64,000 nucleotides of DNA, from positions 1 through 64,000 of the IMG/VR virus record IMGVR_UViG_3300022920_000004; one strand, given 5' to 3'. Source of the DNA: a virus. The notes below the pieces were generated by a model. It was not told the origin of the DNA. It saw nothing but the letters and a program-made list of their open reading frames with translations, and ran no database searches. Shown here in pieces: positions 28,001-52,889 of the stretch (position 1 is its first letter; each line of letters opens with the position of its first letter). The translations under genes and the position numbers were made by a program.

Positions 28001-28524
28001 AAGAAGGTTATTATACTACAACAGCAAGATTTTTATTACAAAATGTTATAAAGAATGCTAAAATACTTAATTTAAAAAGTATAATTTCTGATTATAATAA
28101 ACTTACTGATTATGATAAAGGTAATATTAAAAAAGCTAGTATAGAAGCTGTATTAGCTCAAGTAATTGGTATAGTTTCTACTTTACTAGCTCAAGCTGCA
28201 GATGAAGATGATGATGAATTAGTATTCTTTTTAGCATATGAATTAAGACGTTTAGAATCTGAATTATGGCAATTTAGAGATCCAAATGAAGCAGTTATGA
28301 TTACTAAATCTCCATTTGCATCATTACGTACATTAGAATCATCTATAAGTTTATTAGGTAGAATAGCAAGTCCTTCAAAATGGGCTGAAGAATATGAAAC
28401 TGGTAGAAGAAAAGGAGAAATGAAAATTACTAAATTAGTTCAAGATTTAGTTCCTTTATGGAATAGAACTGATATTAGTAATGAAGAGAAATTTAATTAT
28501 TTGGATAATGTATTAACTAAATAA
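25024..28524 (+). CDS. Giant vRNAP-partner/cargo protein
   Basis: A 1,166-residue protein that is the last gene of the rightward arm. It is joined to the vRNAP gene by a TAATG overlap, so the two are probably made in a fixed ratio. Residues about 58-82 read KFGDWENNP ... VNGEP, echoing the N-terminus of the vRNAP. Residues 90-500 are charged and helical. Near 740-770 there is a Gly-rich hydrophobic stretch (NGYTGMIGMSMNYHSALVNLAGGYAQ) and near 1,040-1,060 another (VLAQVIGIVSTLLAQAADEDDDE), both possible membrane-active parts. In crAss-like phages the cognate proteins accompany the polymerase into the cell. No enzymatic motif was seen. Confidence 0.6.
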   Translation: MACKIFRNKENEIVNVEAPNKKESLLYKAILESSEINGDKELAIRQWVTAYLDDFKKKFGDWENNPDEFVGDLDVNGEPTIEFFNKEYGKLFETIETGDKNILEVDEKWVESKKNIILKSITETVDDNYDSKIDLTTVEGKITKVYNKLQDTITHQFRLIKRLDGSGKDFQKNKQQRIEEFEKLTKTIENYRDVNKLKGVLTYLEHAQKSITTLENSLRKKDKSVDDIEQVIKNYESYKAIFNIIDDISELYHDSIRAGHISAKPDILKQINYIKSKHNNINGDISGLVKDYLRHTLNDIKNFPKVESKWKDTLEKEYNETVSKVYGSKGKTHKENWINEKLQEFKPQIQKDINKATDALIDNTAYDISGFAKNLMSGFEINSDIVQMFTSMALEVRDNIIADVTVVDGELDALFKEYNKTNGGYNPRKQFKDIIEVDSKGNHFFKGKYKTEFMEKHYELQNKYSEMSAIKEKLKDNRTDKTLIAELKGLKKITKALKDDLYISSHYKISKVHPKWLNDFSKVSESNMKVLNEAYNRLETANLNTNGFSSLIMDVGFVPDTLFYKLPSITASNFELVQSGNTKGLFVDKIKDLTTIKADDIGYATVKTNSSGEILKDLPIHFRNKIDSKTQSWDIFTMLKMESHNGIAYKHRAKKEIYMNMVIDMVSNKDFYVTKGTSVTKQFSKYAKHNKEVIKKGGSNIEDKLRDIMDTFMYDITKKDAGKLGPIDVQKLTGMINGYTGMIGMSMNYHSALVNLAGGYAQFIISAVAKDVISVKDLRKAFAVYHKNTVDNAKDLNSAGEDSFVSKINVMFDTFGGQQIGTESFIKDKGWKKFANMHGLTFMHSLGEHQLQSILTMAVLNSTKALDNNGSVIKEANKELTVLDAIKLEDGKLKMNPKLVYTSHSPLTKWEDGGRVQMQSKIKYKMMETLGRYDNNHKSEFEKTWLGSLLFMYKRYFLSMGVSRFRNIGHSIKDKDNIDDDLKFYSNANKRFEEGYYTTTARFLLQNVIKNAKILNLKSIISDYNKLTDYDKGNIKKASIEAVLAQVIGIVSTLLAQAADEDDDELVFFLAYELRRLESELWQFRDPNEAVMITKSPFASLRTLESSISLLGRIASPSKWAEEYETGRRKGEMKITKLVQDLVPLWNRTDISNEEKFNYLDNVLTK

Positions 28525-28545
28525 TAAAGGGTCTTAAAAAAATTT

Positions 28546-28589
28546 AAAAAGGGTGAATGTTACAAATAAATGTAGCGTTCACCCTTTTT
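28546..28589. terminator. Bidirectional intrinsic terminator between the converging arms
   Basis: Arms 28546-28564 and 28571-28589 pair over 19 bp (core AAAAAGGGTGAA/TTCACCCTTTTT, continued by an inner 7-bp stretch with G-U wobbles) around a 6-nt AATAAA loop. A-runs on one side and T-runs on the other give U tails in both directions. It ends the late transcript (gene ending 28,524) and the early transcript (gene ending 28,594). Confidence 0.9.
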
Positions 28590-28593
28590 TGTT

Positions 28594-29454
28594 TTAAAAA
28601 ATATATCTTATTTGATTCCAAGGTATTATACTATTATGTAATTTTTTAAAAGAATCAACATATTTATTTTTATTTTGCCATTTATATCTTAAATTTTCAG
28701 AACCATAAGAACTGACTTTAGATTCTTGTTTATCAGGTTGCCACAATAATTCTTCAGCTTCAGGATTATGGATTAAATTATATTCATGCATTTTTTTATT
28801 ATGTGTTAATAATATAACTTCTGATAATACATAAGGTTTAATTTCATCTAATACAATATCATTTACTAAATTAAATAATTCTTCATATAATTTTTTAGTA
28901 TGAGGTAAAATAATAACTGGGCTAAAATTTATATGTACATCATAACCAGCTTTATAAAAAGTATTAATAGCTTTAATTCTATCAATAATTAAGCTAGTAT
29001 TAGGTTCTAATATATTAGATAATTCTTGGGGCATTAAACTAAATCTAATTCTTATTTTACGTAAAGGATTAAAATTTAATAAATTATTATTAACATTTTT
29101 AGTTGCAAATGTTCCAAAAACATTATCATTATTTTTAAAAAAATTAAATATTTTTGTCCAATCATGATATTTAGCATGTAATGCAAAATCTTCATTACAA
29201 GATAAATCATAAGTCCAATATTTATTATGAGTTTGATTAGGTTTTTTAACACCTAATGTATTTACATGTTCATAAATACTATTAATTATATCATCTGTAT
29301 TTGTAGCAATTGTAAGACCTTTATTTACATGCCTTCTCATATAACAATAAGCACATTTATATAAACAACCGTAACCAAAAGATGGTGTTATATAATCACT
29401 ACTTCTTCCACTATATCTAATTTTTAATGATTTTCTTATTACACTTTTAATCAT
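28594..29454 (-). CDS. Radical SAM enzyme, spore photoproduct lyase-like
   Basis: A 286-residue protein with the radical SAM cluster motif CLYKCAYC (C30-x3-C34-x2-C37), immediately after a YGC segment as in the SplB branch. The KYWTYDLSCNEDFALH block and the FGTFATKN segment follow in the order expected for SPL-like TIM-barrel proteins. Spore photoproduct lyase repairs a UV thymine dimer using S-adenosylmethionine and a 4Fe-4S cluster. The SPL C-terminal substrate Cys is not obvious here, so a related radical reaction on nucleic acid or protein is possible. It is the last gene of the leftward arm, ending at the bidirectional terminator. Confidence 0.65.
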   Translation of the reverse strand: MIKSVIRKSLKIRYSGRSSDYITPSFGYGCLYKCAYCYMRRHVNKGLTIATNTDDIINSIYEHVNTLGVKKPNQTHNKYWTYDLSCNEDFALHAKYHDWTKIFNFFKNNDNVFGTFATKNVNNNLLNFNPLRKIRIRFSLMPQELSNILEPNTSLIIDRIKAINTFYKAGYDVHINFSPVIILPHTKKLYEELFNLVNDIVLDEIKPYVLSEVILLTHNKKMHEYNLIHNPEAEELLWQPDKQESKVSSYGSENLRYKWQNKNKYVDSFKKLHNSIIPWNQIRYIF

Positions 29455-29470
29455 ATTATTATTTTAAATA

Positions 29471-29506
29471 AAAAAAGTAGCTACAAATTAATGTAACTAC
29501 TTTTTT
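29471..29506 (-). terminator. Intrinsic terminator after the nadV/small membrane protein unit
   Basis: Arms 29471-29485 and 29492-29506 form a 15-bp stem with a 6-nt loop. In minus-strand RNA the single mismatch becomes a G-U pair, and the stem ends in a U run, so the minus direction is favoured. It separates the NAD-salvage genes from the radical SAM gene. Confidence 0.75.
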
Positions 29507-29516
29507 AATAATTTAA

Positions 29517-29630
29517 CTATTTTAACATTAACATTATAAAATACCCTAATGCTAATAATATAATTTCTATACTCATAGATATTCCTATAAACATAGAAAT
29601 TCCTCTTAAAAAATTTGATTTATTTTTCAT
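29517..29630 (-). CDS. Small single-span membrane protein
   Basis: A 37-codon ORF (MKNKSNFLRGISMFIGISMS...) with a basic N-terminus followed by a hydrophobic helix covering about residues 11-36. The ATG overlaps the nadV stop by 1 base (TAATG), so it is translationally coupled to nadV, and the transcript ends at the following terminator. The function is unknown. Its tight link to the NAD genes suggests a membrane partner or an independent anti-host microprotein. Confidence 0.5.
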   Translation of the reverse strand: MKNKSNFLRGISMFIGISMSIEIILLALGYFIMLMLK

Positions 29631-31231
29631 TATAAATTATTTATTTTATTTCTAATTTCAGTTAAAGTAATTTGATTATAAAATTTACCATCTTCAAATA
29701 TTACTTTTAAAAAACCTTGGTTTTCTTCATCCCAAGAAACTTGATCTTTTAATAAATAAGAATATTCATCTATAGCATCAGAAGTTTTTTCAACTTTTAA
29801 TAAACCTTTAGCTGATTTTTTAGTACCATCATCTGTAATAGGATCTTTGAAAATATTAATACCTTCTGTAAATCCAATTCTTCCATTATTTGATAAATGA
29901 GTAACTTCTTGATAAGTAGATTTCATTGCAAAACCAAATGTATCTCTAGTATTAAATTGATAAGTAAAACTACCAATACCAGCAACCCAATTTGTAGATG
30001 CAAATCCTTTAGCTTCTAATCTAGTATTAATTTCTTCAAATCTTTCTAAATTAATAGCATCTCCATAAATCATTCTAATTGATGGATGTAATACTTTATA
30101 ACCTTGGGCATTGGTTGTCCCACCAAATATATCCCAAAGTAATTCTATTACTCCTTTATGTTTAGATTTTAAACCTTCGCCTCCATAATCAACTCTTTCA
30201 CGTTTAGTTAATCCTCTACCACAAATAATATCAGCAGGATTACCACTGTCAGGTCTAATTACAACTGGTCCACCAGTTCTAGACATAATTTGTTCTTTCA
30301 ACTGTGGTAAAACTTCTGTAATTAATTTCCATAAATCAAAACCATCAGATACTATACCTAAAGGTCCTGTTGGAAATCTTTCAATTAAAGTTTTAACATA
30401 ATTATAATCAGTACTTTCTTTATGATAATAAGCACATTGAATAGAATGTTCTGTTGCTGGTATTGAACCAACTACAAATTCTTTTTCATCATAATACTCT
30501 CTAGCGGCATGAATTACAGGTAAACTATCTGAACCTAAAAATGATACAGCATGTCCTAAACCACTACTCATTGTAGCATATAAAGAATCCATACCTCTCA
30601 TAGAAAAATCGTGACAACCATATTGACTATGAAAATCATTACCTTTATCAGTTTTAGCAATCCATTTGTCATTAAGCTTTTTAAACTCATAACCTAATGT
30701 TGCAGATGTCATTGGTTTCCATAATAAATTAGAAATCATTGTTTCTAAGAAATTAGTTACCCAAGCAAATTCTGGTAATGTATTGTAAATTGTTAATACA
30801 GGAACTCCCATTGGGCAAAATTCACCTTCTGGTAAAGCTTTTACTTTAATAGGTAAATATCCTAAATCCCATAATGCTTCAATTTTAGATACATCATAAT
30901 CTGTATTAGAATACATTGAATATTCTTTTTTAATATTACCACATATTTCATTTTTAAGACTAAGAACAGCTTTTTCATATTCTTTATCCAATGAAATATC
31001 AGCAATAGTTTGTAAGTAATCTGTCATAAAGAAGTTTTCTTTAAAATTACTAACAATTTCTCTAATTGTCATTTGTGTTCCAAACACTAATACTTCATTA
31101 CACCCTTTAGGAGCGTATTTATTGCTCCTAGGTGTAAAGTTACTATAAATCATAGATGTTCCTTCAGGAGACATCTTTCCATGGTGAATTTTATACCCAT
31201 CCACACATAAAAAAGGGTTTATATTTTTCAT
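29630..31231 (-). CDS. nadV: Nicotinamide phosphoribosyltransferase-like enzyme (NadV/NAMPT; NARP1 Namat candidate)
   Basis: A 533-residue NAMPT-family protein. Recognisable are VDGYKIHHGKM at the N-terminus, GSIPATEHS (equivalent of the catalytic His region, near residue 255), GIVSDGFDLW, VVIRPDSGNPADI (PRPP/phosphate binding) and IYGDAINLERFEEI. NAMPT makes NMN from nicotinamide and PRPP. In the phage NARP1 pathway a NAMPT homologue instead joins nicotinamide to ADPR-pyrophosphate, giving NAD+ directly. A PRPP-synthetase-like gene lies 0.6 kb upstream in the same transcript and no NMN adenylyltransferase is visible, which favours NARP1. Its ATG overlaps the end of the HNH gene by 4 bases (ATGA). 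Confidence 0.85.
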   Translation of the reverse strand: MKNINPFLCVDGYKIHHGKMSPEGTSMIYSNFTPRSNKYAPKGCNEVLVFGTQMTIREIVSNFKENFFMTDYLQTIADISLDKEYEKAVLSLKNEICGNIKKEYSMYSNTDYDVSKIEALWDLGYLPIKVKALPEGEFCPMGVPVLTIYNTLPEFAWVTNFLETMISNLLWKPMTSATLGYEFKKLNDKWIAKTDKGNDFHSQYGCHDFSMRGMDSLYATMSSGLGHAVSFLGSDSLPVIHAAREYYDEKEFVVGSIPATEHSIQCAYYHKESTDYNYVKTLIERFPTGPLGIVSDGFDLWKLITEVLPQLKEQIMSRTGGPVVIRPDSGNPADIICGRGLTKRERVDYGGEGLKSKHKGVIELLWDIFGGTTNAQGYKVLHPSIRMIYGDAINLERFEEINTRLEAKGFASTNWVAGIGSFTYQFNTRDTFGFAMKSTYQEVTHLSNNGRIGFTEGINIFKDPITDDGTKKSAKGLLKVEKTSDAIDEYSYLLKDQVSWDEENQGFLKVIFEDGKFYNQITLTEIRNKINNL

Positions 31232-31710
31232 TTTTTATATTTTTTTAAATAATTAATCGCACAATTTAATGCTTCTATATCATCATTAAATTGTCCTATA
31301 CCTTTATTACAACTACTGCATAATAAACCTCTTACTTCGCCTGTGTTATGACAGTGATCTACTGATAATACTTTATTTCTATAATGAGTTTCTTGCTTTG
31401 AACATATTGCACAAACAAAGTTGTGTTCTTCAGCCATTGTATTATATTCTTCAAGTGTTATTCCATAACTTCTTTTTAAATGAGCTCTTCTATTTATAAG
31501 AACTCCTTTTGGAGAATTATAATAAGCATCTCGTTTATCTTTTTTTCTTAGATTACGAGCTTTAGCTTTTTCAGGATTATTAGAATGTATTTCTCTAGCT
31601 CTTGCATTTTTACACTCTTTACAAGTATTTCTTCTACCATCAGGTCTTTGATTATCAATACCAAATTCTTCTACGTATTTATTGTCGCCACAAATATTAC
31701 ATTTTTTCAT
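31228..31710 (-). CDS. HNH endonuclease, endonuclease VII-like (free-standing homing type)
   Basis: A 160-residue protein. An N-terminal CxxC...CxxC zinc ribbon (CNIC ... CKEC, residues 4-34) is followed by a basic linker. The C-terminal nuclease domain has CAIC, then LSVDHCHNTGEVRGLLCSSC, the typical recombination-endonuclease-VII/HNH core with zinc Cys pairs and the DH metal/catalytic residues. Such small HNH genes are often mobile homing endonucleases. Here it separates a 14-codon duplicate of the nadV start (31767-31811) from intact nadV, which is physical evidence of insertion. It overlaps nadV by ATGA. Confidence 0.85.
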   Translation of the reverse strand: MKKCNICGDNKYVEEFGIDNQRPDGRRNTCKECKNARAREIHSNNPEKAKARNLRKKDKRDAYYNSPKGVLINRRAHLKRSYGITLEEYNTMAEEHNFVCAICSKQETHYRNKVLSVDHCHNTGEVRGLLCSSCNKGIGQFNDDIEALNCAINYLKKYKK

Positions 31711-31766
31711 ACTGCAATATACAACAAATAATTCATAATACCAAATAAAATGATGGTTATTTTAAA

Positions 31767-31811
31767 TTATTTATAGCCATCAACAGCTAAAAATGGATTA
31801 ATTTGTTTCAT
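31767..31811 (-). pseudogene. Duplicated 5' fragment of nadV (insertion scar)
   Basis: Fourteen codons reading MKQINPFLAVDGYK followed by TAA. Intact nadV begins MKNINPFLCVDGYK, so 12 of 14 residues are identical. Homology stops exactly where the stop appears. The HNH gene lies between this fragment and nadV, so this is best explained as the original nadV start left behind when the HNH gene arrived with, or was repaired by, a second copy of the nadV 5' end. It may still be translated, as it keeps the leader after the Prs gene. Confidence 0.8.
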
Positions 31812-31812
31812 A

Positions 31813-32667
31813 TTAAAATAATTTTATAATTTCTAAATTGTTTGGGGTATAACCAACTTTACCATCAACCCATATACCTGTTTTTTCACAACTATATTTA
31901 TCAAACTTACTATTAGTATTAAAAACCTTATCAAAGTAATTAGTTACAGGGTCTTTACCTAAATTCTGTACAGTCATATGACTTACAGCTAAGTATAATT
32001 TACCACAATTTCTTTCTCTAAGTAGTTTAGATAAACCTTTAAATGTTCCTCCATATACAGATATATCATCTATAATAAGAATATCTTTACCCTTAAAATC
32101 TTGTCTATCAACTAATTGTTTCATTCTTGTTTCAGAATGTCCAGTCAATCTAGCCTTACTAGCAGAATAGGTTTCTCCTTTCCAACCAATCTTATCACAA
32201 AGTTTCATTAAAGGTTTAAAACCTCCTGCATCTGAAGACATTAAAATTAAATCTTCAGTATTAAATGTAATATTATCAAAAACTTCTTTAACAAACTCAC
32301 TGTTATCAATAATTTCTACATTATCCATTAAAGCTTCTACAACTTCAGGATTATGTGGATGAAATATTTTAAAATCAGCATTCATAGAGTTTAATCTTTT
32401 TAATACTATTTTTAAACCACTACTTTGATTATCATTAAATCTTCTATCTGCTTGAGCATCTAATAGATTAGGTATTGTAATTAATGGTTCTAAACCATTA
32501 TGATTATACACATCTATAATTTGTTCTAAATGATGTAAATCTTCATAAGTATTAGTTTTAAAAGTAAATTTCATAGGATAATTTCCTCCTGTATCCCAAC
32601 TACTTTCTTCTACAATATTTTCTAATACTACATAACTTGTTCCATCTGGATATTTATTTATTTTCAT
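31813..32667 (-). CDS. Ribose-phosphate pyrophosphokinase-like protein (NARP1 Adps candidate)
   Basis: A 284-residue protein of the phosphoribosyltransferase fold. SSDAGGFKPL corresponds to the SPDAGG loop of PRPP synthetases. KARLTGHSETR follows, then the phosphate/PRPP-binding IIDDISVYGGTFKGL. It is somewhat shorter than bacterial PrsA and divergent at the N-terminus. Classical function: pyrophosphoryl transfer from ATP to ribose 5-phosphate. In NARP1 the phage homologue uses ADP-ribose as acceptor, feeding the NAMPT-like enzyme. The adjacent nadV fits either PRPP supply or ADPR-pyrophosphate supply. It is coupled to the upstream gene by TAATG. Confidence 0.75.
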   Translation of the reverse strand: MKINKYPDGTSYVVLENIVEESSWDTGGNYPMKFTFKTNTYEDLHHLEQIIDVYNHNGLEPLITIPNLLDAQADRRFNDNQSSGLKIVLKRLNSMNADFKIFHPHNPEVVEALMDNVEIIDNSEFVKEVFDNITFNTEDLILMSSDAGGFKPLMKLCDKIGWKGETYSASKARLTGHSETRMKQLVDRQDFKGKDILIIDDISVYGGTFKGLSKLLRERNCGKLYLAVSHMTVQNLGKDPVTNYFDKVFNTNSKFDKYSCEKTGIWVDGKVGYTPNNLEIIKLF

Positions 32668-32969
32668 TATTTTTTATTTTCAATCATAATATTATAAGTC
32701 TTCTCAAATATCTTTGGTTCACAAGGATAATATTCACCTTCAACACCTCTAATAATTATATAACCTTCTGGTACATTGTAAGAAGCACCTTCTAAAGTTT
32801 TAACTTTTAATTCTACATTATATATTGTATTAATACCTTTTGATATAAAATTTTTTTCAAAACTATCTCCAAATGATTCAACCCAATCAGCTAAATCATA
32901 ATCTTTAGGGTTTTCCCATTTAAACCAATCTATTAATACTGGCTTTTTTGTTGCTGTTCCGTAATTCAT
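32667..32969 (-). CDS. Conserved phage protein of unknown function (PGxYIIRGVxGEYYPC type)
   Basis: A 100-residue acidic protein whose C-terminal half (VPEGYIIIRGVEGEYYPCEPKIFEKTYN) matches a widespread family of small phage proteins of unknown role. It has TAATG junctions with both neighbours, placing it firmly in the NAD-gene operon. No catalytic motif was seen. Confidence 0.6.
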   Translation of the reverse strand: MNYGTATKKPVLIDWFKWENPKDYDLADWVESFGDSFEKNFISKGINTIYNVELKVKTLEGASYNVPEGYIIIRGVEGEYYPCEPKIFEKTYNIMIENKK

Positions 32970-33253
32970 TATCTTTCTCCTTTTTTATGATTAATTCTAT
33001 AAAATTCATGTTCATATAAATCCTCATCTAATTCAGGACAATATCCAATATAACCATCTACTATACTAGGGTAAACATACTCATCAGTTCTATTACATCT
33101 ACCTATTGGTCTATTTACACATAATCTAATATTACCAGATTTATCGTGTGTAATATGTACAAAATCTCTTAGTTGCTCATCTGTAACAACTGCATCATCT
33201 TTAAATCCTTTTTGATTCGCAAATTCTCTTAAATCTTTAAATGTTAAACTCAT
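32969..33253 (-). CDS. Hypothetical protein
   Basis: A 94-residue acidic protein of unknown function. A helical N-terminus (FKDLREFANQ) precedes a beta-rich middle with CNRPIGRCN and IGYCPE. The three spaced Cys could bind a metal, but no complete ligand set is clear. It is coupled to its neighbours: TAATG at 32969, and a 1-base gap to the helicase. Confidence 0.5.
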   Translation of the reverse strand: MSLTFKDLREFANQKGFKDDAVVTDEQLRDFVHITHDKSGNIRLCVNRPIGRCNRTDEYVYPSIVDGYIGYCPELDEDLYEHEFYRINHKKGER

Positions 33254-33254
33254 T

Positions 33255-34505
33255 TTATTTTATTTTATTTATACAATCTTCAATATTGTTACAATAAATC
33301 ATATTTAAGTTATTTAAATTCTCAAACATTTTATTAAACCATACTTCTTCTTGTGTTTCTTTAGTTACTATTATAAATACTTTACCAATAGTTCCATCAT
33401 CTCTTAAACGTCCTAAACGTTGCTTTAAATCCAATTCTTTAGAGAAGTAAGACATTATTATACAATTATCTAAATCCTTTAAATTAGCTCCTTGTTTAAG
33501 CTTTTTAAATGAACCTATAATTTGTATTCTATCATTGTCAAAATCATCTCTAATTTTATTATTTATATCATCTTTATTTCTAGAAGATACTACATTTTTA
33601 GTAACTTGTAATAAAGCATCTATATCATTACCAAATATAATTGTTTTACCTTTAACATATTTAAGTAATTCTCTTACAATTGGTATTTTAGAAGGTAATT
33701 TATATAATAATTTACTTCTTCTAGCTGCTGCATTTCTAATTTTAGCAGATTTAATTCCTTCAGACTTACTAATTCTAGATTGGTAAGCACTATTACTTTC
33801 ATTACTTCCTTTGCTATAATCTATAAATTCACTAACATTTTTAGTAAATACTTTATTCCAATAATCGTAAGCAGCTTGTTCAGTTTGCTTAAATGGTCGT
33901 AATTTACTTCCTGCAGATATACTTTTATCTTTATTATTTAGTTGGTTATATATAACATATATATCTAATTGTCTAGATGTACCATCTTTTAAACCATCAT
34001 CTAAAGAATAAGTAAAACATATTGGTGCAATGTCGTTTAAAATATCTATTTTAAAGCGTTTTATACTATCATAATATGTTTCCTTATCAATTGTAGCAGA
34101 TAAGCCTATAATAGCCTTAAAATGGTTGTTATAGTATAATTTAGAGTATTCTACAGAACAAAGTTCATGCACTTCATCCATTATAGCTAAACCAATTTTT
34201 TTATCTTTCCATTTATAAGCTCCTTGATATGTTTTAAAGTGTAAATTATAATCTTCTAATACATTTCTATCAAAGATTTCATTATATAATTTTATTTGCT
34301 TAACTAAATCTAATTTCCTATCTGTTACTTCAGCAAAGAAATAATGTTCTATACTCCAATCTCTAGGCATTTCATATAAAGCGTGTAAAGCTAAAAACGT
34401 TTTACCAATTCCAGTAGAAATTTCAACAGAACCTTTTTTACCATTTTCTAACCAAGCTTTTAATGCTGCTTTTTGAATTATATCTTTTTTTAATATATTA
34501 GTCAT
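33255..34505 (-). CDS. SF2 DEAD/DEAH-box helicase (UvsW/RecG-like remodelling type)
   Basis: A 416-residue superfamily 2 helicase. Motif I ISTGIGKTF lies near residues 29-37, motif II MDEVH (a DEAD-box variant) near 110-114, motif III GLSATID near 133-139, and motif VI KQRLGRLR near 365-372. The size fits small phage UvsW-like branch-migration helicases or ResIII-type proteins. There is no fused nuclease. It could restart stalled forks or resolve recombination intermediates together with the RusA-like resolvase. The start overlaps the end of the upstream 39-codon gene by 8 bases. Confidence 0.78.
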   Translation of the reverse strand: MTNILKKDIIQKAALKAWLENGKKGSVEISTGIGKTFLALHALYEMPRDWSIEHYFFAEVTDRKLDLVKQIKLYNEIFDRNVLEDYNLHFKTYQGAYKWKDKKIGLAIMDEVHELCSVEYSKLYYNNHFKAIIGLSATIDKETYYDSIKRFKIDILNDIAPICFTYSLDDGLKDGTSRQLDIYVIYNQLNNKDKSISAGSKLRPFKQTEQAAYDYWNKVFTKNVSEFIDYSKGSNESNSAYQSRISKSEGIKSAKIRNAAARRSKLLYKLPSKIPIVRELLKYVKGKTIIFGNDIDALLQVTKNVVSSRNKDDINNKIRDDFDNDRIQIIGSFKKLKQGANLKDLDNCIIMSYFSKELDLKQRLGRLRDDGTIGKVFIIVTKETQEEVWFNKMFENLNNLNMIYCNNIEDCINKIK

Positions 34506-34617
34506 TTAACTTTTTTAAATATTCATTCCATTCATCAGTAACATCAGTGTCTCCCTGATATCCAATTCTAATATTATTCATACCATCTCTATATAAAAAA
34601 CTTGGTAATTCTTTCAT
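34498..34617 (-). CDS. Small hypothetical protein (39 aa)
   Basis: A 39-codon acidic ORF (MKELPSFLYRDGMNNIRIGY...) whose stop lies 8 bases inside the next gene (ATGACTAA). This is the same overlap style as other real junctions here. An A-rich leader precedes the ATG. The function is unknown. Confidence 0.45.
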   Translation of the reverse strand: MKELPSFLYRDGMNNIRIGYQGDTDVTDEWNEYLKKLND

Positions 34618-41173: not shown

Positions 41174-41834
41174 TGTTTTCTTCTATTATTTTATTAATAT
41201 CATTAAAATGTGTACAATTCCAATCAATGTTTTTTTTAACAGCATCATTTGGGTTTGTAAATTCTAAAATATAATTATTATTACTATTTATATATTGTTT
41301 AAATGATTGAGCTTGATTACCCCATAAACAGTATATAATACCTGTATTAACCTCGCTAAGAGACTTTAATAAATATTTAATAAAGTAACTCCAATATATA
41401 GAATGACTTCCTTGTTTTCCTCTAATTGCACTTAAAGATGTGTTAATACATAAAACACCTTGTTTAGACCAATTACTTAAACCATAATCCATAAAATATA
41501 AACCATCTTTAACATTATTAGTTATACATTGCTCTATTTTAGAAAGGGGTTCACTTATGTAAACCCCATGTTTTTCTTCATTAGCAAATGCAATACCAAT
41601 ATCTTTATCATTAGCGTAAGGATTATCTCCTAATATAACAACCTTTAATTTATTATAATCAGTATCTGTAAAAGCTTTAAAAATATCCTTTTTTAGAGGA
41701 AATACTTTTTTACCACTTCTATATTCTTCATTAATAAATTTAATAAGTTTATGCATATATTTACTATCTAATAAATCCTGTCTTAATAAACTATACCAAG
41801 TATTAAATACTTGTTTTTGTACATTAAAATTCAT
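41145..41834 (-). CDS. Uracil-DNA glycosylase-like protein with altered catalytic motifs
   Basis: A 229-residue protein with the family 1 UDG layout: VVILGDNPYA in place of GQDPYH, GIAFAN, GVLCINTSLS (family VLLLNTxLTV), IIYCLWGNQAQ (family LLWGxxAQ) and a final FTNPNDA in place of HPSPLS. The catalytic Asp of motif A aligns with Asn, and the His of motif B is missing. It may therefore act by another route, bind without cutting, or be inactive. Crassvirales commonly carry UDG. It overlaps the amidoligase gene by 11 bases. Confidence 0.7.
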   Translation of the reverse strand: MNFNVQKQVFNTWYSLLRQDLLDSKYMHKLIKFINEEYRSGKKVFPLKKDIFKAFTDTDYNKLKVVILGDNPYANDKDIGIAFANEEKHGVYISEPLSKIEQCITNNVKDGLYFMDYGLSNWSKQGVLCINTSLSAIRGKQGSHSIYWSYFIKYLLKSLSEVNTGIIYCLWGNQAQSFKQYINSNNNYILEFTNPNDAVKKNIDWNCTHFNDINKIIEENNGSSEKIIW

Positions 41835-43566
41835 CTTCTATTTCTAAATTTTCAATTAATGCATTTACAACTTCTTCTTCATTATTATGAACTGCTACAG
41901 GTGCAATTGGTGGATTTAAACCTTCTAAAAATATTTCAATATCCCTATTTACAATAGCTTCAACATTATTTCTTCTAATATGTCTTGATGTTTCCCAAGT
42001 AAATTCTTTAATTTCATCTTGAATTTCTTTATTTTTAACAGGAACACTCCAATCTATTCTAGAATATGCAGATATTGCACTTTCATCACCTTTAACATTA
42101 CCTTGACAGTTTTGAGAATAAGTAATATCTTTTCTATCTCTAACATAACTATAAATACAACTGTATAAATTAGATTTATAAGCATTACTAAGATGAATAT
42201 TATTGTAGATGCTTTTTTCTAAAATACTATATAAGTTATTATTTCTAAAAGTTCTTTTATAATTAGACAAAATAGCTGTAGTATTATCTTTAACAAAATT
42301 AATAATACTTCCACACATTACAATATAATTAATTACTTTATTGGCTTCAAATGTAGGTGTATGAATTCTAAATTCAACAGTTTCTTTATTATCAAATATT
42401 AAAGGTAACATATTAGCCCATAAATAACGTGTTTTCACTTGCCACTTCCTATTACCATTTGGGTCTGAAGGATGGGATTTAACATTATCTAATGAATTAT
42501 AATTACCTTTAAAATCAACACCTCCAGATAAATAAGCAAATAAAACATCAAAATTATCAACAATATTTTCATTATTAATAACTTTATCCATTTGACTTAT
42601 TAATTTGTGAGATGGTAATTGTTGAGTATAATCATTTTGTTTAACTCCAAAATTATATTTCTTATATAAAGGAAATAATTCATATACATCATCTTGAATA
42701 TGAACTAAAGTTTTATATAATGCTAAAATAAATTCCATTGTTCTAGGAATACCACCTATATGTAAATGTAATGCACAATTATCATCAAAATCAGTTCTAT
42801 CTTTTAATAATTTACAAGATTCTACTACAGTTTGCAAACCTTTTTTACCAGATAAAGGTATTGTTACATATTCAATACCAGTAATACTACCATCTCTTAA
42901 AGGAATTAATCCTAATGGTTTAGCTAATCTATCAGGAATATTACCTTTAGTAGTTTCAAATTCTAATCCAAAACTTAAACCTTTAATAACATCACCATAT
43001 CTTTCAATATTTCTATTAATTTCAAGATTATTATTGTTGTAATCTTCAGTATAATTACCTATAATATTTTTACAATTATATTCTAAACTTCTTTTATAAG
43101 AAGAGTTAGGTATATGTTTTTTATTAAATGATTTTGCTTGAATACTATTTATATTATAAAATATACCATCTTGTAAACGTTCTCTAAATTTATTAGTATT
43201 TTTAAAAACATCTGACGATAAACTAATAATACAACCAATATTATTATTAACATATACATTTTTAAATTTATTAGGTGTAAAATATCCATAAATTAAATTA
43301 CCATTTATTACATCAACAATACCATTTAATAAATTACAATTATTTTTAACTACATACTCTTCAAGTTCATAGTCATATGTTATATAACCAGTTTCATATC
43401 TATAATATTTATCATTAATATAATAACAATCGCCTGAATCTATTATTTTAACATCTCCTATAATATAATAATCTCCAGATATTCTACGACATTTTGATTT
43501 ATCAATAGAAACTCCATTGATTGTAGTAACCATAACTACTTTTTTTTCTTCTATATTTTCGTTCAT
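41824..43566 (-). CDS. Amidoligase-family (glutamine synthetase-like fold) peptide ligase
   Basis: A 580-residue protein. Residues 1-190 form a beta-rich phage-specific domain (CRRISGDYYIIG ... DSGDCYYIN ... GIVDVINGNLIYGYFTPN). The catalytic part starts at GLSFGLEFETT (paired Glu for metal/ATP), continues with CALHLHIGG (H-x-H) near residue 265, and EFRIHTPTFEANK near 400, the Amidoligase_2 pattern. The superfamily makes amide bonds between a carboxylate and an amine using ATP. It forms a tight block with a class II glutamine amidotransferase (3 bases) and the COOH-NH2 ligase, so it probably builds a peptide or amidated product with them. Confidence 0.75.
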   Translation of the reverse strand: MNENIEEKKVVMVTTINGVSIDKSKCRRISGDYYIIGDVKIIDSGDCYYINDKYYRYETGYITYDYELEEYVVKNNCNLLNGIVDVINGNLIYGYFTPNKFKNVYVNNNIGCIISLSSDVFKNTNKFRERLQDGIFYNINSIQAKSFNKKHIPNSSYKRSLEYNCKNIIGNYTEDYNNNNLEINRNIERYGDVIKGLSFGLEFETTKGNIPDRLAKPLGLIPLRDGSITGIEYVTIPLSGKKGLQTVVESCKLLKDRTDFDDNCALHLHIGGIPRTMEFILALYKTLVHIQDDVYELFPLYKKYNFGVKQNDYTQQLPSHKLISQMDKVINNENIVDNFDVLFAYLSGGVDFKGNYNSLDNVKSHPSDPNGNRKWQVKTRYLWANMLPLIFDNKETVEFRIHTPTFEANKVINYIVMCGSIINFVKDNTTAILSNYKRTFRNNNLYSILEKSIYNNIHLSNAYKSNLYSCIYSYVRDRKDITYSQNCQGNVKGDESAISAYSRIDWSVPVKNKEIQDEIKEFTWETSRHIRRNNVEAIVNRDIEIFLEGLNPPIAPVAVHNNEEEVVNALIENLEIEDEF

Positions 43567-43569
43567 TGT

Positions 43570-45414
43570 TTAATTTATTTGTAAAGTTGCTATTTTTTCC
43601 ATTTTAAGTGTTACATTTTTTAATATTTTAATAGAATCCATTGCTATTTTATTATCTCCATATTTCTCTAATTGACTTATGAAAGATGGTAATGAAATAT
43701 AAAAATTTATTAACATTTTATCTAAGTCAGCTCTTACTAAGTCATTAGTAAAATCTATTTGAGGTTTAGTTTCTTCCTTTTTATCATTTAACACTATTGT
43801 CATTAATGCAGTACTTGTTTTCAGTAAATCTTTATCTGAAACTAAATCCTTTTTCTTTTCAGGTTTAAAAGGAATTGTAGTTGCATTTCTAGCTGATTTA
43901 GTTTCTATTAAATTACCGTCTTTTATTTTATAAATTCTATCAGAACCTAACATACAATATATTCCTGTAAATAAAATACCATCTCTCATAATACCTTGAT
44001 TATTATAATGTGGAAATTTTTTTGTTATATCTACAATAGGATGTTTTGCAGCCCAAGATAATCTTTTTATATCAAGTATCATATCTCCATCTATCACAAA
44101 AGTATTTAATTGTGTAAAATCTAAATCAGTTTTAAGTTGAATACCATCAATAAAATAATATAAAGGTGGGTTAGTAATTTCTTTACCATCAATACCATGT
44201 ACAAAAGGTATAAAAGAATGTTGATCTAATTCAAACTCATCTTTTATGAAATCTCCTTGCCAAAATTCTTTATTTACAATATCATAAAATGCATCACTAG
44301 CAGCTTTAGGATCTTTTTCATCTAAAAAGTAATATCCATATCCTTTAACAAAAGTATAAATACCATTTATTAAATGACCATTTCTATAAAATCTAAGTTT
44401 ATTAAAATATACTCTACCATTATAATCATTTATATTTCTAATAGGTTTTTCATCATGAATACTAACTTTTGAAGAATTTTCAGAAGCTTTGAGCTGTTGT
44501 TTAGCTTTTCTAGCAAGTCTTCTAGTTGTAGCACCTCCTGTTATTAAATTTTTAACAGGTTCATGAGTTTTATTAAACTTATTACTATAAATTTGTTTAT
44601 ATTGATAATCATAAGTTTGCGTTGAATTAGATCTATCTACTTTAATTATAACAGCATTATCTACATCACCATCAGTAATTTTATATACTTTATTATGTTC
44701 AAATTCTCCTACATTTTTAATATCAGCACCTATAGCATAAAGTGAATCTTCTATAGAAGAAATATATAAGCTATTTTTAGATTCCTTATAATAATATAAA
44801 GGTCTTTCTTCAATATTTTCAGGAGTGTATCTATTTTTTTTACTTGCCCCATGATAACAATACATTACATTAGGTTCATTAACATTATAAAATATTAATG
44901 CTGCTGCTCCATTATAATCATTTAGTACTTTAAAATCGTTTTCTTGATGAATAATTTCTAATAATATTTCAGAATCAATTTTATTCCTATAAGTGATTAA
45001 TTCTTGTCCATTTTTTAATTCAGAAATGTCTCTAACATTTTTTTCAATACCATAATTTTCAGCAAGAACATCTTCATTATGTAAAGAGCCATTATGTACT
45101 CCAATAAAATCTAAAGTACCATCACCATTACCAAATCCAAATGGATGAGCATTTGTTTCATTATGAGCTCCACCTGTAGCCCATCTTGTATGCCCTATAA
45201 CAATTGGTATTGTTACAGGGTTTATATATTCTCTATTGTCAGCAACAAAATCTCTAAATAGTTTTTGTCCTGCTGTACCGTATTTTATAGTACCATCTAC
45301 AGTAATTCCACAAGAATGTTTACCTCTTGTTTCATTAATTATTCCTAATATATTAAATTTATCTACGTTAAAATCTTTAACGTCTTTACCAGCAAATGCT
45401 ATTACTCCGCACAT
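43570..45414 (-). CDS. Class II glutamine amidotransferase (Ntn hydrolase) with phage-specific C-terminus
   Basis: A 614-residue protein. The N-terminal Ntn-hydrolase glutaminase domain begins MCGVIAF with the nucleophile Cys2. It has GKHSCGI, GHTRWATGG (near residue 75) and GVHNGSL (near 112), as in GlmS, PurF and AsnB. No sugar-isomerase, PRTase or synthetase domain follows. Instead residues 320-560 are beta-rich with two similar blocks (NGHLINGIYTFVKGYGYYF and RDGILFTGIYCMLGSDRIY). It would release ammonia from glutamine for the ligases encoded on both sides (1- and 3-base gaps). Confidence 0.85.
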   Translation of the reverse strand: MCGVIAFAGKDVKDFNVDKFNILGIINETRGKHSCGITVDGTIKYGTAGQKLFRDFVADNREYINPVTIPIVIGHTRWATGGAHNETNAHPFGFGNGDGTLDFIGVHNGSLHNEDVLAENYGIEKNVRDISELKNGQELITYRNKIDSEILLEIIHQENDFKVLNDYNGAAALIFYNVNEPNVMYCYHGASKKNRYTPENIEERPLYYYKESKNSLYISSIEDSLYAIGADIKNVGEFEHNKVYKITDGDVDNAVIIKVDRSNSTQTYDYQYKQIYSNKFNKTHEPVKNLITGGATTRRLARKAKQQLKASENSSKVSIHDEKPIRNINDYNGRVYFNKLRFYRNGHLINGIYTFVKGYGYYFLDEKDPKAASDAFYDIVNKEFWQGDFIKDEFELDQHSFIPFVHGIDGKEITNPPLYYFIDGIQLKTDLDFTQLNTFVIDGDMILDIKRLSWAAKHPIVDITKKFPHYNNQGIMRDGILFTGIYCMLGSDRIYKIKDGNLIETKSARNATTIPFKPEKKKDLVSDKDLLKTSTALMTIVLNDKKEETKPQIDFTNDLVRADLDKMLINFYISLPSFISQLEKYGDNKIAMDSIKILKNVTLKMEKIATLQIN

Positions 45415-45415
45415 A

Positions 45416-46243
45416 TTATATCTTTATTTTTTCTTTTGTTAATATTGTTACTATTTCTTTATTTATTTCTGTATATAATTCTTTAGCTAAATCTACATTA
45501 GATTCATTTATTGCTAATTGTATATTATCACCATACTTTTCAAATATCTCTGATAAATCATTGTTTAAAGCTAATTCTACAGCTTTAATAGTTTCATTAT
45601 AAACCCATTCAATAGTTTCATCAGATTGTATCCAAAAGTTAGATAATATTCTACATTCAACACCAAAATCTTTAAATCTAAATGCCCCTGCTTTACCATA
45701 CATTCTTCTACGTCTTGTATCAGGATCTAACCATACTGAAGGTAAACCTAGTAATATATCAAAAGCTTTAACAACGTTTTCTTGCTTCTCTTGAGTTACA
45801 TTAGGGAAACCTATATGAACGTGCCCTCCAGCACTTCTAAGTCTTCCTTTAGATGCTGGTGGTGTATTAGCTTCACGTTTCCAAACATTAAAATCAGGTT
45901 CGCAACCAAATCTTTTAGCTTGTTCAGTTTTAAGATACTTTTTATCCAACATTGATGAAGCTGAATAATTTAAAGATATATTATTTTTTTCAAACTTCTC
46001 ATTTAAATAATTTTTTACAAGGTTAATGTTATCTTTAAATTCATCCATTGTATTTGATGGTGGAATATTAAACTCCACCATTACGTTATCTTCTTGTACA
46101 CAATGTCCTTTATCTGTAATAGGTAAAGGTTCTTCTTTTGTACCACCAACTAATCCTTCTGCTGATATAATTTGACCATCTTTTTCTAAGAATAATTCTG
46201 GGTCACATCCTAATGTTATTACTGTTCTTTTATTATTTTTCAT
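45416..46243 (-). CDS. COOH-NH2 ligase (phage amidoligase, glutamine synthetase-like)
   Basis: A 275-residue protein beginning with TLGCDPELFL, then VEFNIPPS, GGHVHIGFP (H-x-H near residue 142) and RRRMYGKAGAFRFKDFGVECRILSNFW. These are the hallmarks of the phage COOH-NH2 ligase family described in the amidoligase superfamily. The Glu and His residues coordinate magnesium-ATP. It precedes the class II amidotransferase by 1 base. Together with the second amidoligase downstream it gives two distinct ligases in one operon. Confidence 0.82.
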   Translation of the reverse strand: MKNNKRTVITLGCDPELFLEKDGQIISAEGLVGGTKEEPLPITDKGHCVQEDNVMVEFNIPPSNTMDEFKDNINLVKNYLNEKFEKNNISLNYSASSMLDKKYLKTEQAKRFGCEPDFNVWKREANTPPASKGRLRSAGGHVHIGFPNVTQEKQENVVKAFDILLGLPSVWLDPDTRRRRMYGKAGAFRFKDFGVECRILSNFWIQSDETIEWVYNETIKAVELALNNDLSEIFEKYGDNIQLAINESNVDLAKELYTEINKEIVTILTKEKIKI

Positions 46244-46256
46244 TTATTTTCTAATT

Positions 46257-46421
46257 TTATTCAATATCTATATTCACTTTGTCAACTAACATCCACTCAC
46301 AACTATCTATAATAAATCCAAATTCTGTTAAAAATTCTAAGATATCATCCCATTCATTTAAATCATAATTTTTTATATAAATTGTATTGTCTGTTTTATC
46401 TAAAATAATTAACTTTTTCAT
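46257..46421 (-). CDS. Small acidic hypothetical protein (54 aa)
   Basis: A 54-codon acidic ORF (MKKLIILDKTDNTIYIK..., then NEWDDILEFLTEFGFIIDS) in the otherwise empty gap upstream of the COOH-NH2 ligase gene. It has a beta-alpha layout, an intact ATG and an A-rich leader. The function is unknown. Confidence 0.5.
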   Translation of the reverse strand: MKKLIILDKTDNTIYIKNYDLNEWDDILEFLTEFGFIIDSCEWMLVDKVNIDIE

Positions 46422-46441
46422 TTATTGTTATTTGTTTTTCA

Positions 46442-46822
46442 CTATTTTATTAATTCTAATGCTTTTTGTAAACCTTTTTCTAATGCTTGTTCGTATGTGT
46501 TCCAGCAGCCTGATTCATTAGGTCCTGAAAATTCAGAATCAGCAATATGAGTTCCTCCTCTTTCAGGTGTATAATGCGATTCCCAACAATACCCTGATGC
46601 ATTAGCATATGAGTTTACAATTATTTGATACTCTTCTCTCAACCAACGTTGTAATAAACTTTGTGTTGGTCTTAGTATAACTCTACTTACGTCTATTTGA
46701 GAATCTTCATAAACTAACCATTCATAAAAAAATTCACCATCTTCATAAAAGTAAGACATCCAATCAAATCCTTTTTTCTTAGCTAATTCAGCAACTTCAA
46801 AACTTACTAATTCATCTTTCAT
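46442..46822 (-). CDS. Conserved phage protein of unknown function
   Basis: A 126-residue protein of a family widespread in Bacteroidota phages and genomes: LVSFEVAELAKKKGFD at the N-terminus, PTQSLLQRWLREEYQI in the middle, and YEQALEKGLQKALELI at the end. Its biochemical role is not known. It is encoded within the amidoligase island. Confidence 0.7.
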   Translation of the reverse strand: MKDELVSFEVAELAKKKGFDWMSYFYEDGEFFYEWLVYEDSQIDVSRVILRPTQSLLQRWLREEYQIIVNSYANASGYCWESHYTPERGGTHIADSEFSGPNESGCWNTYEQALEKGLQKALELIK

Positions 46823-46834
46823 TTTTCTAATTGT

Positions 46835-47275
46835 TTAATTTGAATAATATTTATCAAAAGCATCCATTACTAAATTATAATTATGCTCATTGTAATTAGG
46901 ATATTCTTTTATAAATTCTGAAATTGGTTTTATTTTAATATCTTTTAAAAATTCAAAATTTCTAATTACTATTGCTCCCTTCGTACCTATTATATCTTCA
47001 ATAGCGTAATATTTACTACTACCTCTACCCATTGATGCTATTTCATCATAAGCATCCATTTTATCATAAGATTCACCTAGTATTTTTATAATATTTAAAA
47101 TAGAGAAATCTGAAGTGTAAATGTCACCATACAATATTACACCTTCTTCAATATTTCCTTGCATTTCACCTTCTAATCCAAATAAACTATTGTAATCACA
47201 AGGTTTTTCATTTACTAAAAAACATTTTTGTATATCATCATATTTTAAAGTAACAGATTTTAAATTTTCTATCAT
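46835..47275 (-). CDS. Hypothetical protein
   Basis: A 146-residue protein from the Met at 47275, which overlaps the upstream amidotransferase stop as TAATG. A longer version from 47311 would overlap that gene by 37 bases, and I reject it because TAATG junctions recur throughout. The protein is mixed alpha/beta, acidic, with no recognised motif. Its place inside the peptide-ligase island suggests a substrate or accessory role, but nothing in the sequence shows it. Confidence 0.5.
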   Translation of the reverse strand: MIENLKSVTLKYDDIQKCFLVNEKPCDYNSLFGLEGEMQGNIEEGVILYGDIYTSDFSILNIIKILGESYDKMDAYDEIASMGRGSSKYYAIEDIIGTKGAIVIRNFEFLKDIKIKPISEFIKEYPNYNEHNYNLVMDAFDKYYSN

Positions 47276-47955
47276 TACTTGCTTAATAAGTTTCTCACTA
47301 AATCTAAACAATAATTAGAAGTTTCTGTATCACAACTACTAAATTCAGGATGTCCTTGTATAGCTAAAGCATTTGTATTTTTATAATATACAATTTCAGG
47401 TTCTAAAAACTCTCTAGGAATTTCCATTTCTTCATTTCTACCATTTAAATAAGTATCACTTTTAAAATAAGTAGACCAAGCTATTAAATCATAAGCATCT
47501 TTACTTAATTCATTAGGATACATCATTTGATGGTGTGTAGAAGTCATATTTAAAATAAGATTTTCTTTTGTACTAATAGTATGTTCACCTCCATGTCCAT
47601 TAACATGTTGTATTAAACTACCACCAGAAAGTGCTGTTAAAAACTGAGCTCCTCTACAAATTCCAATTTTAACTACAGATTTAGGTAATCTTTCCCAAAT
47701 ACTAACTTCAAAAGCATCTCTTTCTTTATCAATATGTGTAAATTTACCAATGTTTTGTCCATAGTAATCAGGATTAACATCTGAACCACCAGTAAATACG
47801 ACTAAATCAATAGTTTCTTCTTTTTTAACTAATTTACTAAAATCCGTTAAACTATTAATAACTTTAATGTTAAAATCTTTTAATTTTCCTAACCAAGTTA
47901 AATAATCGTTGTTAGAATTTCCTACTATAATAATATTTTTTTTAATTTTTGACAT
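47275..47955 (-). CDS. Class I glutamine amidotransferase/gamma-glutamyl hydrolase-like (C26) protein
   Basis: A 226-residue protein with the class I GATase fold. FTGGSDVNPDYYG lies near residue 54, the nucleophile elbow GICRGAQ (Cys) near 98, an HH pair THHQMM near 138, and the catalytic His-Glu of GHPEFSS near 205. The GGSDVNP block is characteristic of the C26/PuuD-like gamma-glutamyl hydrolase branch rather than synthase-linked amidotransferases. It would cleave gamma-glutamyl amides, perhaps products or precursors of the neighbouring ligases. Confidence 0.8.
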   Translation of the reverse strand: MSKIKKNIIIVGNSNNDYLTWLGKLKDFNIKVINSLTDFSKLVKKEETIDLVVFTGGSDVNPDYYGQNIGKFTHIDKERDAFEVSIWERLPKSVVKIGICRGAQFLTALSGGSLIQHVNGHGGEHTISTKENLILNMTSTHHQMMYPNELSKDAYDLIAWSTYFKSDTYLNGRNEEMEIPREFLEPEIVYYKNTNALAIQGHPEFSSCDTETSNYCLDLVRNLLSK

Positions 47956-47966
47956 AATTTTTTATT

Positions 47967-48161
47967 TTATTTATTTTCTTTAATTGATTCTATTATTGTG
48001 TATTGACTTGGGTAACTTGCTACTAATATACGAGGTAAATATTGATTAGAATTTTTTTTATAAAAATCAATTCTAAGATTTTTCATAGTAACTTCATCAG
48101 CTATAACATCCGTACCAAATTTACTACTTGGCATACTTACGTATAATCTATAAGTTTTCAT
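47967..48161 (-). CDS. Small hypothetical protein (64 aa)
   Basis: A 64-residue basic, beta-rich protein (MKTYRLYVSMPSSKFG...) that starts 14 bases inside the ATP-grasp gene. It might be a carrier or accessory peptide of the ligase island, but it shows no recognised motif and no conserved C-terminal acceptor sequence. Confidence 0.5.
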   Translation of the reverse strand: MKTYRLYVSMPSSKFGTDVIADEVTMKNLRIDFYKKNSNQYLPRILVASYPSQYTIIESIKENK

Positions 48162-48993
48162 ATTTATCTATTAATAATTTAGGTAACTCTTCTATATACT
48201 TTTCAGAGGTTTTATCTCCAAATGAGGCGGCAGAATTTATTTCCACTACTATAAATTTAGGTGCTTCTCTCAAGTCACCGTCTTTATTTTTAGCAGATTG
48301 TATTCTTAAATCTACAGCTCCCATATCTAATCCTACAGCTTTTAAAGCTTTTACAGATTCGTCAATAACTTCATCCCAATTAACTGGTTTATCAAATAAT
48401 TCATTATCTTCTAAAATCCAATTGCAATGAGCATCATTTCTATACCATCTAACGTCTTGAGGAGCATCAGCTTGTAACATCTTTCTACAAGTATAGAAAC
48501 ATCCATTCTTAGAAATATGTAGTCTGTATTCTCTGTTATAGCTGTAATACTTTTCAAAGATATATTTACTTAAATCTTTACCTTCCATCCAAGCTTCTAA
48601 TGATTCTTGAGTATCGTGTTTTTTATTACCAGTTCCTCTACTACCAAATATATGTTTAGATATAATTGGATAAGGTAATTCTTCTATATTTTTATTTTCA
48701 CCAGTAAAGCTCTCCATAAAATTATCACCAGTATTTAAATACCAACCAGCAGTTTTAACTTCATCTTCAGTAAAACAAGTTTTCATTAATAGCTTATTAC
48801 TACTATTTTTAATAGCTTCAACAGTATTTAATTCAATTCTACCATCTGTAAATTCTTTACTACTACCAAATCTAATTACAGATTTAAATGGTAACAATGG
48901 TAATGTTTTATTTTCACGTCTTAATATATCGTGAGAAGGGTGGCGACTTCTAATAGCTGGTCTCCATCTTGTAAATCTATTTCTAATAGGCAT
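48148..48993 (-). CDS. ATP-grasp ligase
   Basis: A 281-residue protein counted from the ATG at 48993; a TTG 9 bases upstream also keeps the frame but is less likely. YPIISKHIFGSRGTG gives the ATP-binding Lys and the glycine-rich flexible loop. EYRLHISKNGCF follows, and near the C-terminus VDLRIQ ... FIVVEINSAASF supplies the metal-binding Asp, Glu and Asn. This is the ATP-grasp order (RimK/tubulin-ligase-like). It forms amide bonds through an acyl phosphate. It overlaps the cyclotransferase gene by 11 bases. Confidence 0.82.
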   Translation of the reverse strand: MPIRNRFTRWRPAIRSRHPSHDILRRENKTLPLLPFKSVIRFGSSKEFTDGRIELNTVEAIKNSSNKLLMKTCFTEDEVKTAGWYLNTGDNFMESFTGENKNIEELPYPIISKHIFGSRGTGNKKHDTQESLEAWMEGKDLSKYIFEKYYSYNREYRLHISKNGCFYTCRKMLQADAPQDVRWYRNDAHCNWILEDNELFDKPVNWDEVIDESVKALKAVGLDMGAVDLRIQSAKNKDGDLREAPKFIVVEINSAASFGDKTSEKYIEELPKLLIDKYENL

Positions 48994-49396
48994 GTTGTGC
49001 AAGGCTTTTTTTAAACATTAAGTGTTCTTTCCAATCGCCACTTTTTACGATTTCTTGTTTATTTAATGGTGTATTATAAATATAACCAATAGCTTCTCCA
49101 AATGGAGTTTCAATAGTTGTTTTTAAATACATGCTCATAAAAGGATTATCTTCATTAAAACCTTCTAAGTTATCTAATTCAGCTAATGTATGATCATCAA
49201 CTTCATATACTTCCATATTTACAGAAGTGTTACCATTTTCATATAATCCAGGATAACTCCCTAAATCAACTAATGTAAATTCAGGTTCAGTTATAAAAGA
49301 ACCTTTAAATTCACTATCTTCTAAATATATATGATTATGTAATCCTTTCATTAAAGAACCATATACAGCTACTAAATATTTTTTATTGTTGTTCAT
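48983..49396 (-). CDS. Gamma-glutamylcyclotransferase-like (GGCT/AIG2) protein
   Basis: A 137-residue protein with VAVYGSLMKGLHNH (family YGSLxxG, residues 8-20), a central beta barrel, and LDNLEGFNE (family LDxxEG, with the catalytic Glu region). The length fits single-domain GGCTs. Enzymes of this fold release 5-oxoproline from gamma-glutamyl amines or peptides. Coupled by overlap to the ATP-grasp gene, it could edit or terminate gamma-glutamyl products of the ligase island. Confidence 0.82.
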   Translation of the reverse strand: MNNNKKYLVAVYGSLMKGLHNHIYLEDSEFKGSFITEPEFTLVDLGSYPGLYENGNTSVNMEVYEVDDHTLAELDNLEGFNEDNPFMSMYLKTTIETPFGEAIGYIYNTPLNKQEIVKSGDWKEHLMFKKSLAQHAY

Positions 49397-49410
49397 TGTT
49401 TTTAATTGTT

Positions 49411-49551: not shown

Positions 49552-49552
49552 T

Positions 49553-50956: not shown

Positions 50957-50980
50957 ATTTATAATTTTTAAGTTTATTAA

Positions 50981-51006: not shown

Positions 51007-51014
51007 AATATTAA

Positions 51015-52870: not shown

Positions 52871-52889
52871 TGTTTTAATTTAATTATTA

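Follow-up and report, generated by a model that had tools for sequence, protein, structure and literature searches.

Phage genes that resemble phosphoribosyl pyrophosphate (PRPP) synthetase (Prs) and nicotinamide phosphoribosyltransferase (NAMPT) raise the question of whether they make nicotinamide mononucleotide (NMN) in ordinary salvage, or restore nicotinamide adenine dinucleotide (NAD+) directly by the reconstitution pathway NARP1, which pairs an ADP-ribose pyrophosphokinase (Adps) with a nicotinamide ADP-ribose transferase (Namat). We examined such a pair in a 64-kb stretch (the window) of the 99-kb virus record IMGVR_UViG_3300022920_000004, of which the remaining 35 kb was also searched. 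A first-pass annotation of the window had described a Prs-like gene, with the loops SSDAGG and DDISVYGGTF, and a NAMPT-like gene, and both were confirmed at their positions, on the minus strand. The adps-like gene (31813-32667, minus strand, 284 residues) matches PHROG 619, ribose-phosphate pyrophosphokinase (E 3e-35). The namat-like gene (29630-31231, minus strand, 533 residues) matches both Pfam PF04095 (E 3e-30) and, at E 3e-161, PHROG 448, the family annotated as 'nicotinamide phosphoribosyl transferase'. These family assignments are far beyond chance. The two genes very probably form a NARP1 operon: all the features that can be tested in sequence are present, and the activity of the pair is predicted from them.

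Features of the Namat-like and Adps-like proteins

The Namat of Bacillus phage SPbetaL1 is told apart from NAMPT by a selectivity-clamp helix, GSX-phi-X-phi-X-phi-TRD with aromatic residues at positions 3 and 7, and the clamp loop of Namat carries either Arg or a Lys/Tyr with a stacking residue after it (PMC12774641). The window protein matches the published helix signature exactly, having GSFTYQFNTRD at residues 420-430 (29942-29974, minus strand) with F422 and F426 as the adenine-stacking aromatics. Its clamp loop, K38-Y39 (31115-31120, minus strand), aligns with R40-V41 of SPbetaL1 Namat and is the Lys-then-stacking-residue variant of the same paper. The SPbetaL1 crystal structure shows 20 residues in contact with NAD+. 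The window protein has 18 of them unchanged, with conservative substitutions at the other two (R40 to K38, then Y39, and Y396 to F426). The catalytic His is H262, and the residues contacting nicotinamide and ribose are all identical to those of SPbetaL1 Namat. The signature was not present in the aligned sequences of human NAMPT or the phage NadV proteins of KVP40, Matisse, phiM7, XM05 and Ccr32; at this place the KVP40, phiM7 and Ccr32 enzymes, like the human one, read GG(G/Q)... instead.

Comparison with solved structures gave the same order of likeness. By phmmer, the window protein scored 408 bits against SPbetaL1 Namat (9w5x, 48% identity), 353 against Haemophilus ducreyi NadV and 189 against human NAMPT, and the top Foldseek matches of its model were 9w5x and 9w5w (E 7e-53). 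In the tree, the window protein and the characterised Namat were split (100/100) from the KVP40, Ccr32, phiM7, XM05, Matisse and human enzymes. The tested relatives SPbetaL1 (PMC12774641) and ICP1 nrsAB (PMC11559045) belong to the same clade as the window Namat, with the NadV-type enzymes outside (100/100), and bacterial relatives, mostly from marine Flavobacteriaceae, also share one clade with it (100/100).

The partner protein does not look like a housekeeping Prs, since it fails the curated ribose-phosphate diphosphokinase cut-offs and the TGGT loop is missing. Its score for TIGR01251, 49.8 bits, is well under the cut-off of 113, and its 61.8 bits for NF002095 compare with a cut-off of 296. 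SPbetaL1 Adps misses both thresholds too (106 and 81, respectively), while E. coli Prs clears TIGR01251 with 423 bits. The AlphaFold model of the window protein (predicted local distance difference test score 88.9) has the PRPP-synthetase fold, with a template-modelling score of about 0.7 and 15-18% identity to PRPP synthetases. In the alignment, the ribose-5-phosphate-binding loop reads DDISVYGGTF (residues 200-209; 32041-32070, minus strand), where canonical Prs has DD[MI]x[DS]TGGT[LIM]; each of the four canonical Prs sequences has Thr before GG, which the aligned phage and viral proteins all lack. The part that binds the 5'-phosphate of ribose 5-phosphate is SVYGGTF in the window protein and SSFGGTF (DDLSSFGGTF) in SPbetaL1 Adps, and the altered loop may set the preference for ADP-ribose. 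The tree placed the protein with phage Adps-like proteins, away from the four canonical Prs, in a small divergent group with those of five other loci (L002, L003, L004, L006 and L082; 48-68% identity). A profile search of the whole record gave no match to canonical Prs.

Linkage of the two genes was counted among the best 80 viral and best 80 bacterial relatives of the Namat; a locus scored when the fetched stretch contained an Adps-like open reading frame (ORF) in the same orientation. The viral relatives carried the signature in 80/80 cases and the linked ORF in 66/80, many of the rest lying on truncated contigs. The bacterial relatives (L270-L349), again mostly marine Flavobacteriaceae, had the full clamp motif in 80/80 and the Adps-like neighbour in 46/80. 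The first-pass annotation had named an NMN adenylyltransferase gene elsewhere in the genome as a result that would speak against NARP1; no such gene (PF01467) was detected in the window or the other 35 kb, by a search that was positive in 14/14 control genomes. This absence is supporting, not decisive, because part of the genome may be missing from the record and because the host brings an adenylyltransferase of its own. For the kind of NARP1 operon that includes an RyR-domain glycosidase (RyDEP), the domain PF02026 had no match in the whole record, the scanned flanking proteins included, but the control search was likewise without a match.

The closest characterised counterpart, the SPbetaL1 pair (Adps and Namat; PDB 9w5x/9w5w), shares the adjacency and order of the genes, the clamp and the catalytic residues. 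The window pair differs from it in the Lys-Tyr clamp loop in place of Arg, in the length of Namat (533 versus 491 residues), in an HNH gene between the two genes, and in its Adps, which is only 24% identical. ICP1 nrsAB has the same Adps-Namat order and the clamp motif GSYTYQYVTRD, but belongs to another phage lineage, lacks an HNH gene between the genes and has demonstrated activity, whereas the window pair is known from sequence. The crAss-like phages DAC15 and cr111_1 (Steigviridae), of the same virus order by likeness, also have both enzymes clustered, but in the order namat, a 143-residue gene, adps, and their Namat (46-47% identical) is on a separate branch. Their gene of about 143 residues (L084 6490-6918 and L086 5487-5918) overlaps namat and is once annotated as phosphoheptose isomerase; it is possibly a third NARP1 component in Steigviridae. 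The viral contig L006 (IMGVR_UViG_3300035698_009910) has the same order with 68% identical Adps and 59% identical Namat, but there adps and namat abut and the HNH gene is absent, so that this contig likely represents the state before HNH insertion.

The predicted pathway and its alternatives

In the proposed pathway, Adps would move pyrophosphate from ATP onto ADP-ribose to give ADP-ribose pyrophosphate (ADPR-PP), and Namat would couple nicotinamide to ADPR-PP to give NAD+ in a single step. A bacterium may destroy its own NAD+ to stop an infection, and the phage pair would probably rebuild it, reversing the NAD+ cleavage by host defences of the TIR, SIR2 or SEFIR type.

Several observations weigh against this assignment. 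H. ducreyi NadV (plasmid pNAD1; PDB 9ke8/9keo), solved with NMN in 9ke8, nests inside the Namat-like clade, and because this NMN-binding enzyme sits on the Namat side, clade membership alone does not settle function. The clamp residues 422-426 have low confidence in the AlphaFold model. In addition, PRPP is also accepted as a substrate by Namat in vitro (PMC12774641), and therefore the presence of the clamp does not exclude NMN synthesis. On the side of the partner, the divergence from SPbetaL1 Adps is accompanied by a change of the conserved Arg of the R-x-D-R motif to Gln (Q-A-D-R), which sets the window protein apart from other Adps proteins.

The alternative that survives best is that the two proteins are NARP1 enzymes by descent, but serve the general balance of NAD+ and ADP-ribose in infection and are not directed at one specific defence. 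The occurrence of the pair in marine Bacteroidota contigs, at the frequencies given above, makes a housekeeping role possible. On the other hand, the tested phage pairs (ICP1 nrsAB, SPbetaL1 and DyoEdafos) counter NADase defences or rebuild NAD+ from their products; ICP1 nrsAB overcomes SIR2-HerA and is costly for fitness when the defence is absent (PMC11559045). We regard this general role as unlikely.

Somewhat less likely still is ordinary nicotinamide salvage, in which the Prs-like protein would make PRPP, the NAMPT-like protein would make NMN, and a host adenylyltransferase would complete NAD+. The superfamilies of the two proteins are indeed those of PRPP synthetase and NAMPT, and Namat, NadV and the window protein all pass the generic nicotinate phosphoribosyltransferase model NF006629. 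The best argument for salvage is H. ducreyi NadV, which lies in the same broad clade, is 43% identical to the window Namat and is the next-best structure match. However, this enzyme has lost the clamp, with E, Q and R at the three clamp positions (helix motif GAQTYQRNTRD), and no prs-like gene lies on its plasmid. The window protein, in contrast, has retained the clamp and an Adps-like partner, and that partner is without the canonical loop and far under the Prs cut-offs. The clamp signature, the closeness to the Namat structures, the separation from NadV, the low Prs scores of the partner and the lack of an NMN adenylyltransferase are all better accounted for by NARP1 than by NMN salvage, in agreement with what the first-pass annotation had proposed. 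The comparison it had recommended, by phylogeny and structure against characterised NARP1 enzymes and housekeeping Prs and NAMPT, likewise places the window proteins with the NARP1 enzymes, with the caveat of H. ducreyi NadV. NARP2-type salvage by NadV and a phage NMN adenylyltransferase can practically be dismissed: other phages have NadV beside an adenylyltransferase-type gene (n = 3; an annotated NMN adenylyltransferase in Ccr32 and an adjacent cytidyltransferase in phiM7 and XM05), but PF01467 is unmatched across this record, and the window enzyme, which lies outside their clade, shares 27-32% identity with those three NadV proteins.

An HNH cassette in the start of namat

The NARP1 pair itself is a known system, already common in phages and also found in bacteria, and the less expected part of the locus lies between its two genes. 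The earlier gene listing was right about the pair, but it missed a 160-residue HNH/endonuclease VII-like gene (31228-31710, minus strand; PF02945 E 8e-26, PHROG 2633 E 2e-38) and a truncated start of namat (31767-31811, minus strand). The truncated start is a dead, displaced head of 14 codons, MKQINPFLAVDGYK followed by a stop (nucleotide sequence ATGAAACAAATTAATCCATTTTTAGCTGTTGATGGCTATAAATAA), and begins 2 nt past the adps stop codon. The working head of namat, MKNINPFLCVDGYK (31190-31231, minus strand), is recoded, and its start overlaps the HNH stop codon. Over the 14 codons the heads differ at seven, of which five changes are synonymous and two alter the amino acid (Q3N and A9C); a further difference is the stop of the dead copy at codon 15. 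The namat heads of the closest relatives (L003, L002 and L006) match the dead copy at 24-25 of 30 nt and the new head at 21-22 of 30. The dead copy thus looks native and the working head imported, an observation of moderate weight since the stretches are short.

The HNH gene probably encodes a homing endonuclease. A self-splicing intron carrying the HNH ORF was considered and rejected: no group I or group II intron in Rfam matched 28500-34600 even at E 5, and the repeat unit of 580 nt is mostly HNH ORF (483 nt). In the mechanism that we propose, a homing-type HNH gene would have entered namat at codon 14 and brought a recoded replacement start with it, leaving both enzymes intact. The recoded copy may escape cutting by the element's own endonuclease, while the target gene keeps working.

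The same layout was found in Leptolyngbya phage Lbo-JY46: MSFKINSLYLADGYKK runs into a stop, the HNH gene that follows is 48% identical, and namat then starts with MSFKINSLYWVDGYK. The insertion site in namat is at the same DGYK codons in the window phage and Lbo-JY46; the Asp and Tyr of this motif contact nicotinamide (PMC12774641). A survey of HNH relatives followed by an ORF (125 distinct cases), in which alignment scores were compared with those of shuffles, detected a duplicated head in four: two before namat and two before the large terminase gene (L102, and L104 with its equal L107), the latter in two related metagenomic viruses. These four scored 65-83, the next best reached 37, and the shuffles about 30-43. 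Each cassette consists of an endonuclease VII/HNH gene, a truncated start of the downstream gene (14-16 codons) and a largely synonymous working copy, and they lie at window 31190-31811 (minus strand), L087 3418-4036, L102 about 3895-4580 and L104 about 1866-2550. On balance we favour the reading that the window cassette represents a class of homing elements in phages, which enter a gene behind its opening 14-16 codons and bring recoded substitutes for these. HNH genes without a recognisable dead head also stand directly before namat in two more phage lineages, L076 (5500-5997) and Felixounavirus LinBro (L179 1962-2453), the one in the Felixounavirus being of a different HNH family. The namat start may be an insertion hot spot for HNH genes, as these cases suggest.

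A comparable arrangement is known from fungal mitochondrial mobile ORFs: an endonuclease ORF sits in a gene whose original end has been displaced and whose new end has diverged mostly by synonymous changes (PMC3630166). The examples in atp6, atp9, cox2 and nad3 of Glomus and atp6 of Allomyces share with the window cassette the displaced native end and the in-frame diverged replacement. They differ in that they replace the carboxy-terminal end, the mirror image of the amino-terminal replacement seen here, and in that their endonucleases are LAGLIDADG or GIY-YIG enzymes and not HNH/endonuclease VII. No case of head replacement was found in the parts covered of two papers on phage homing endonucleases (PMC10448857 and PMC2988022), a limited search that is not proof of novelty.

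The virus, the neighbouring genes and the meaning of the locus

The terminase, portal and head proteins of the window virus matched dedicated PHROGs, and the sole matches of a large virion-side protein, all of them weak, were in Cellulophaga phage phi14:2 and in crAss-like phages. The virus is likely a crAss-like phage. Its host group is likely Bacteroidota, because the window Namat shares its clade with bacterial relatives dominated by marine Flavobacteriaceae, whose contigs carry closely related NARP1 pairs. PADLOC gave no meaningful match.

From their common strand and overlaps, it is plausible that adps, the HNH gene, namat and the small neighbours are in one transcript. The neighbours are a hydrophobic membrane ORF of 37 residues (29517-29630) and two small ORFs upstream of adps (32667-32969 and 32969-33253), which the first-pass annotation had suggested as new parts of NARP1. 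This suggestion did not hold, because the ORFs are not conserved with the pair: the 37-residue ORF and the 94-residue ORF had no homologues in the fetched NARP1 loci, and the 100-residue ORF had one in two of these loci and falls in several PHROG families of unknown function.

Outside the operon, a terminator-like hairpin of 19 pairs followed by T's (28546-28589) stands between converging rightward and leftward gene blocks, and the GC skew switches sign at it. The leftward block is closed by a 286-residue radical S-adenosylmethionine gene resembling spore photoproduct lyase (28594-29454, minus strand; PF20903 E 3e-22), possibly a DNA-repair gene in the phage. A cluster further along (41824-55246, minus strand) holds two amidoligase/COOH-NH2 ligase-type genes, a glutamine aminotransferase-like gene and two glutamine amidotransferase (peptidase C26) genes, and recalls the phiEco32-type loci for peptide or cell-wall modification.

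The present analysis adds a further, probably crAss-like, lineage to those with a complete NARP1 pair; the pathway is unmentioned in the Zeta crAss-like paper. It also ties the pair to close relatives in marine Bacteroidota contigs, which allows a likely host group and source to be named. According to PMC12774641, no Adps structure was known, and the divergent Adps group, with up to 68% identity to the window protein and an altered ribose-5-phosphate loop, would be useful for locating the specificity for ADP-ribose. The cassette at the namat start is a case of a mobile endonuclease that appears to have entered a gene at active-site codons without breaking it. If the class is real, it would mirror, at the head end of genes, what the mobile ORFs of fungal mitochondria do at the tail, and would be a naturally occurring equivalent of home-and-rescue gene drives.

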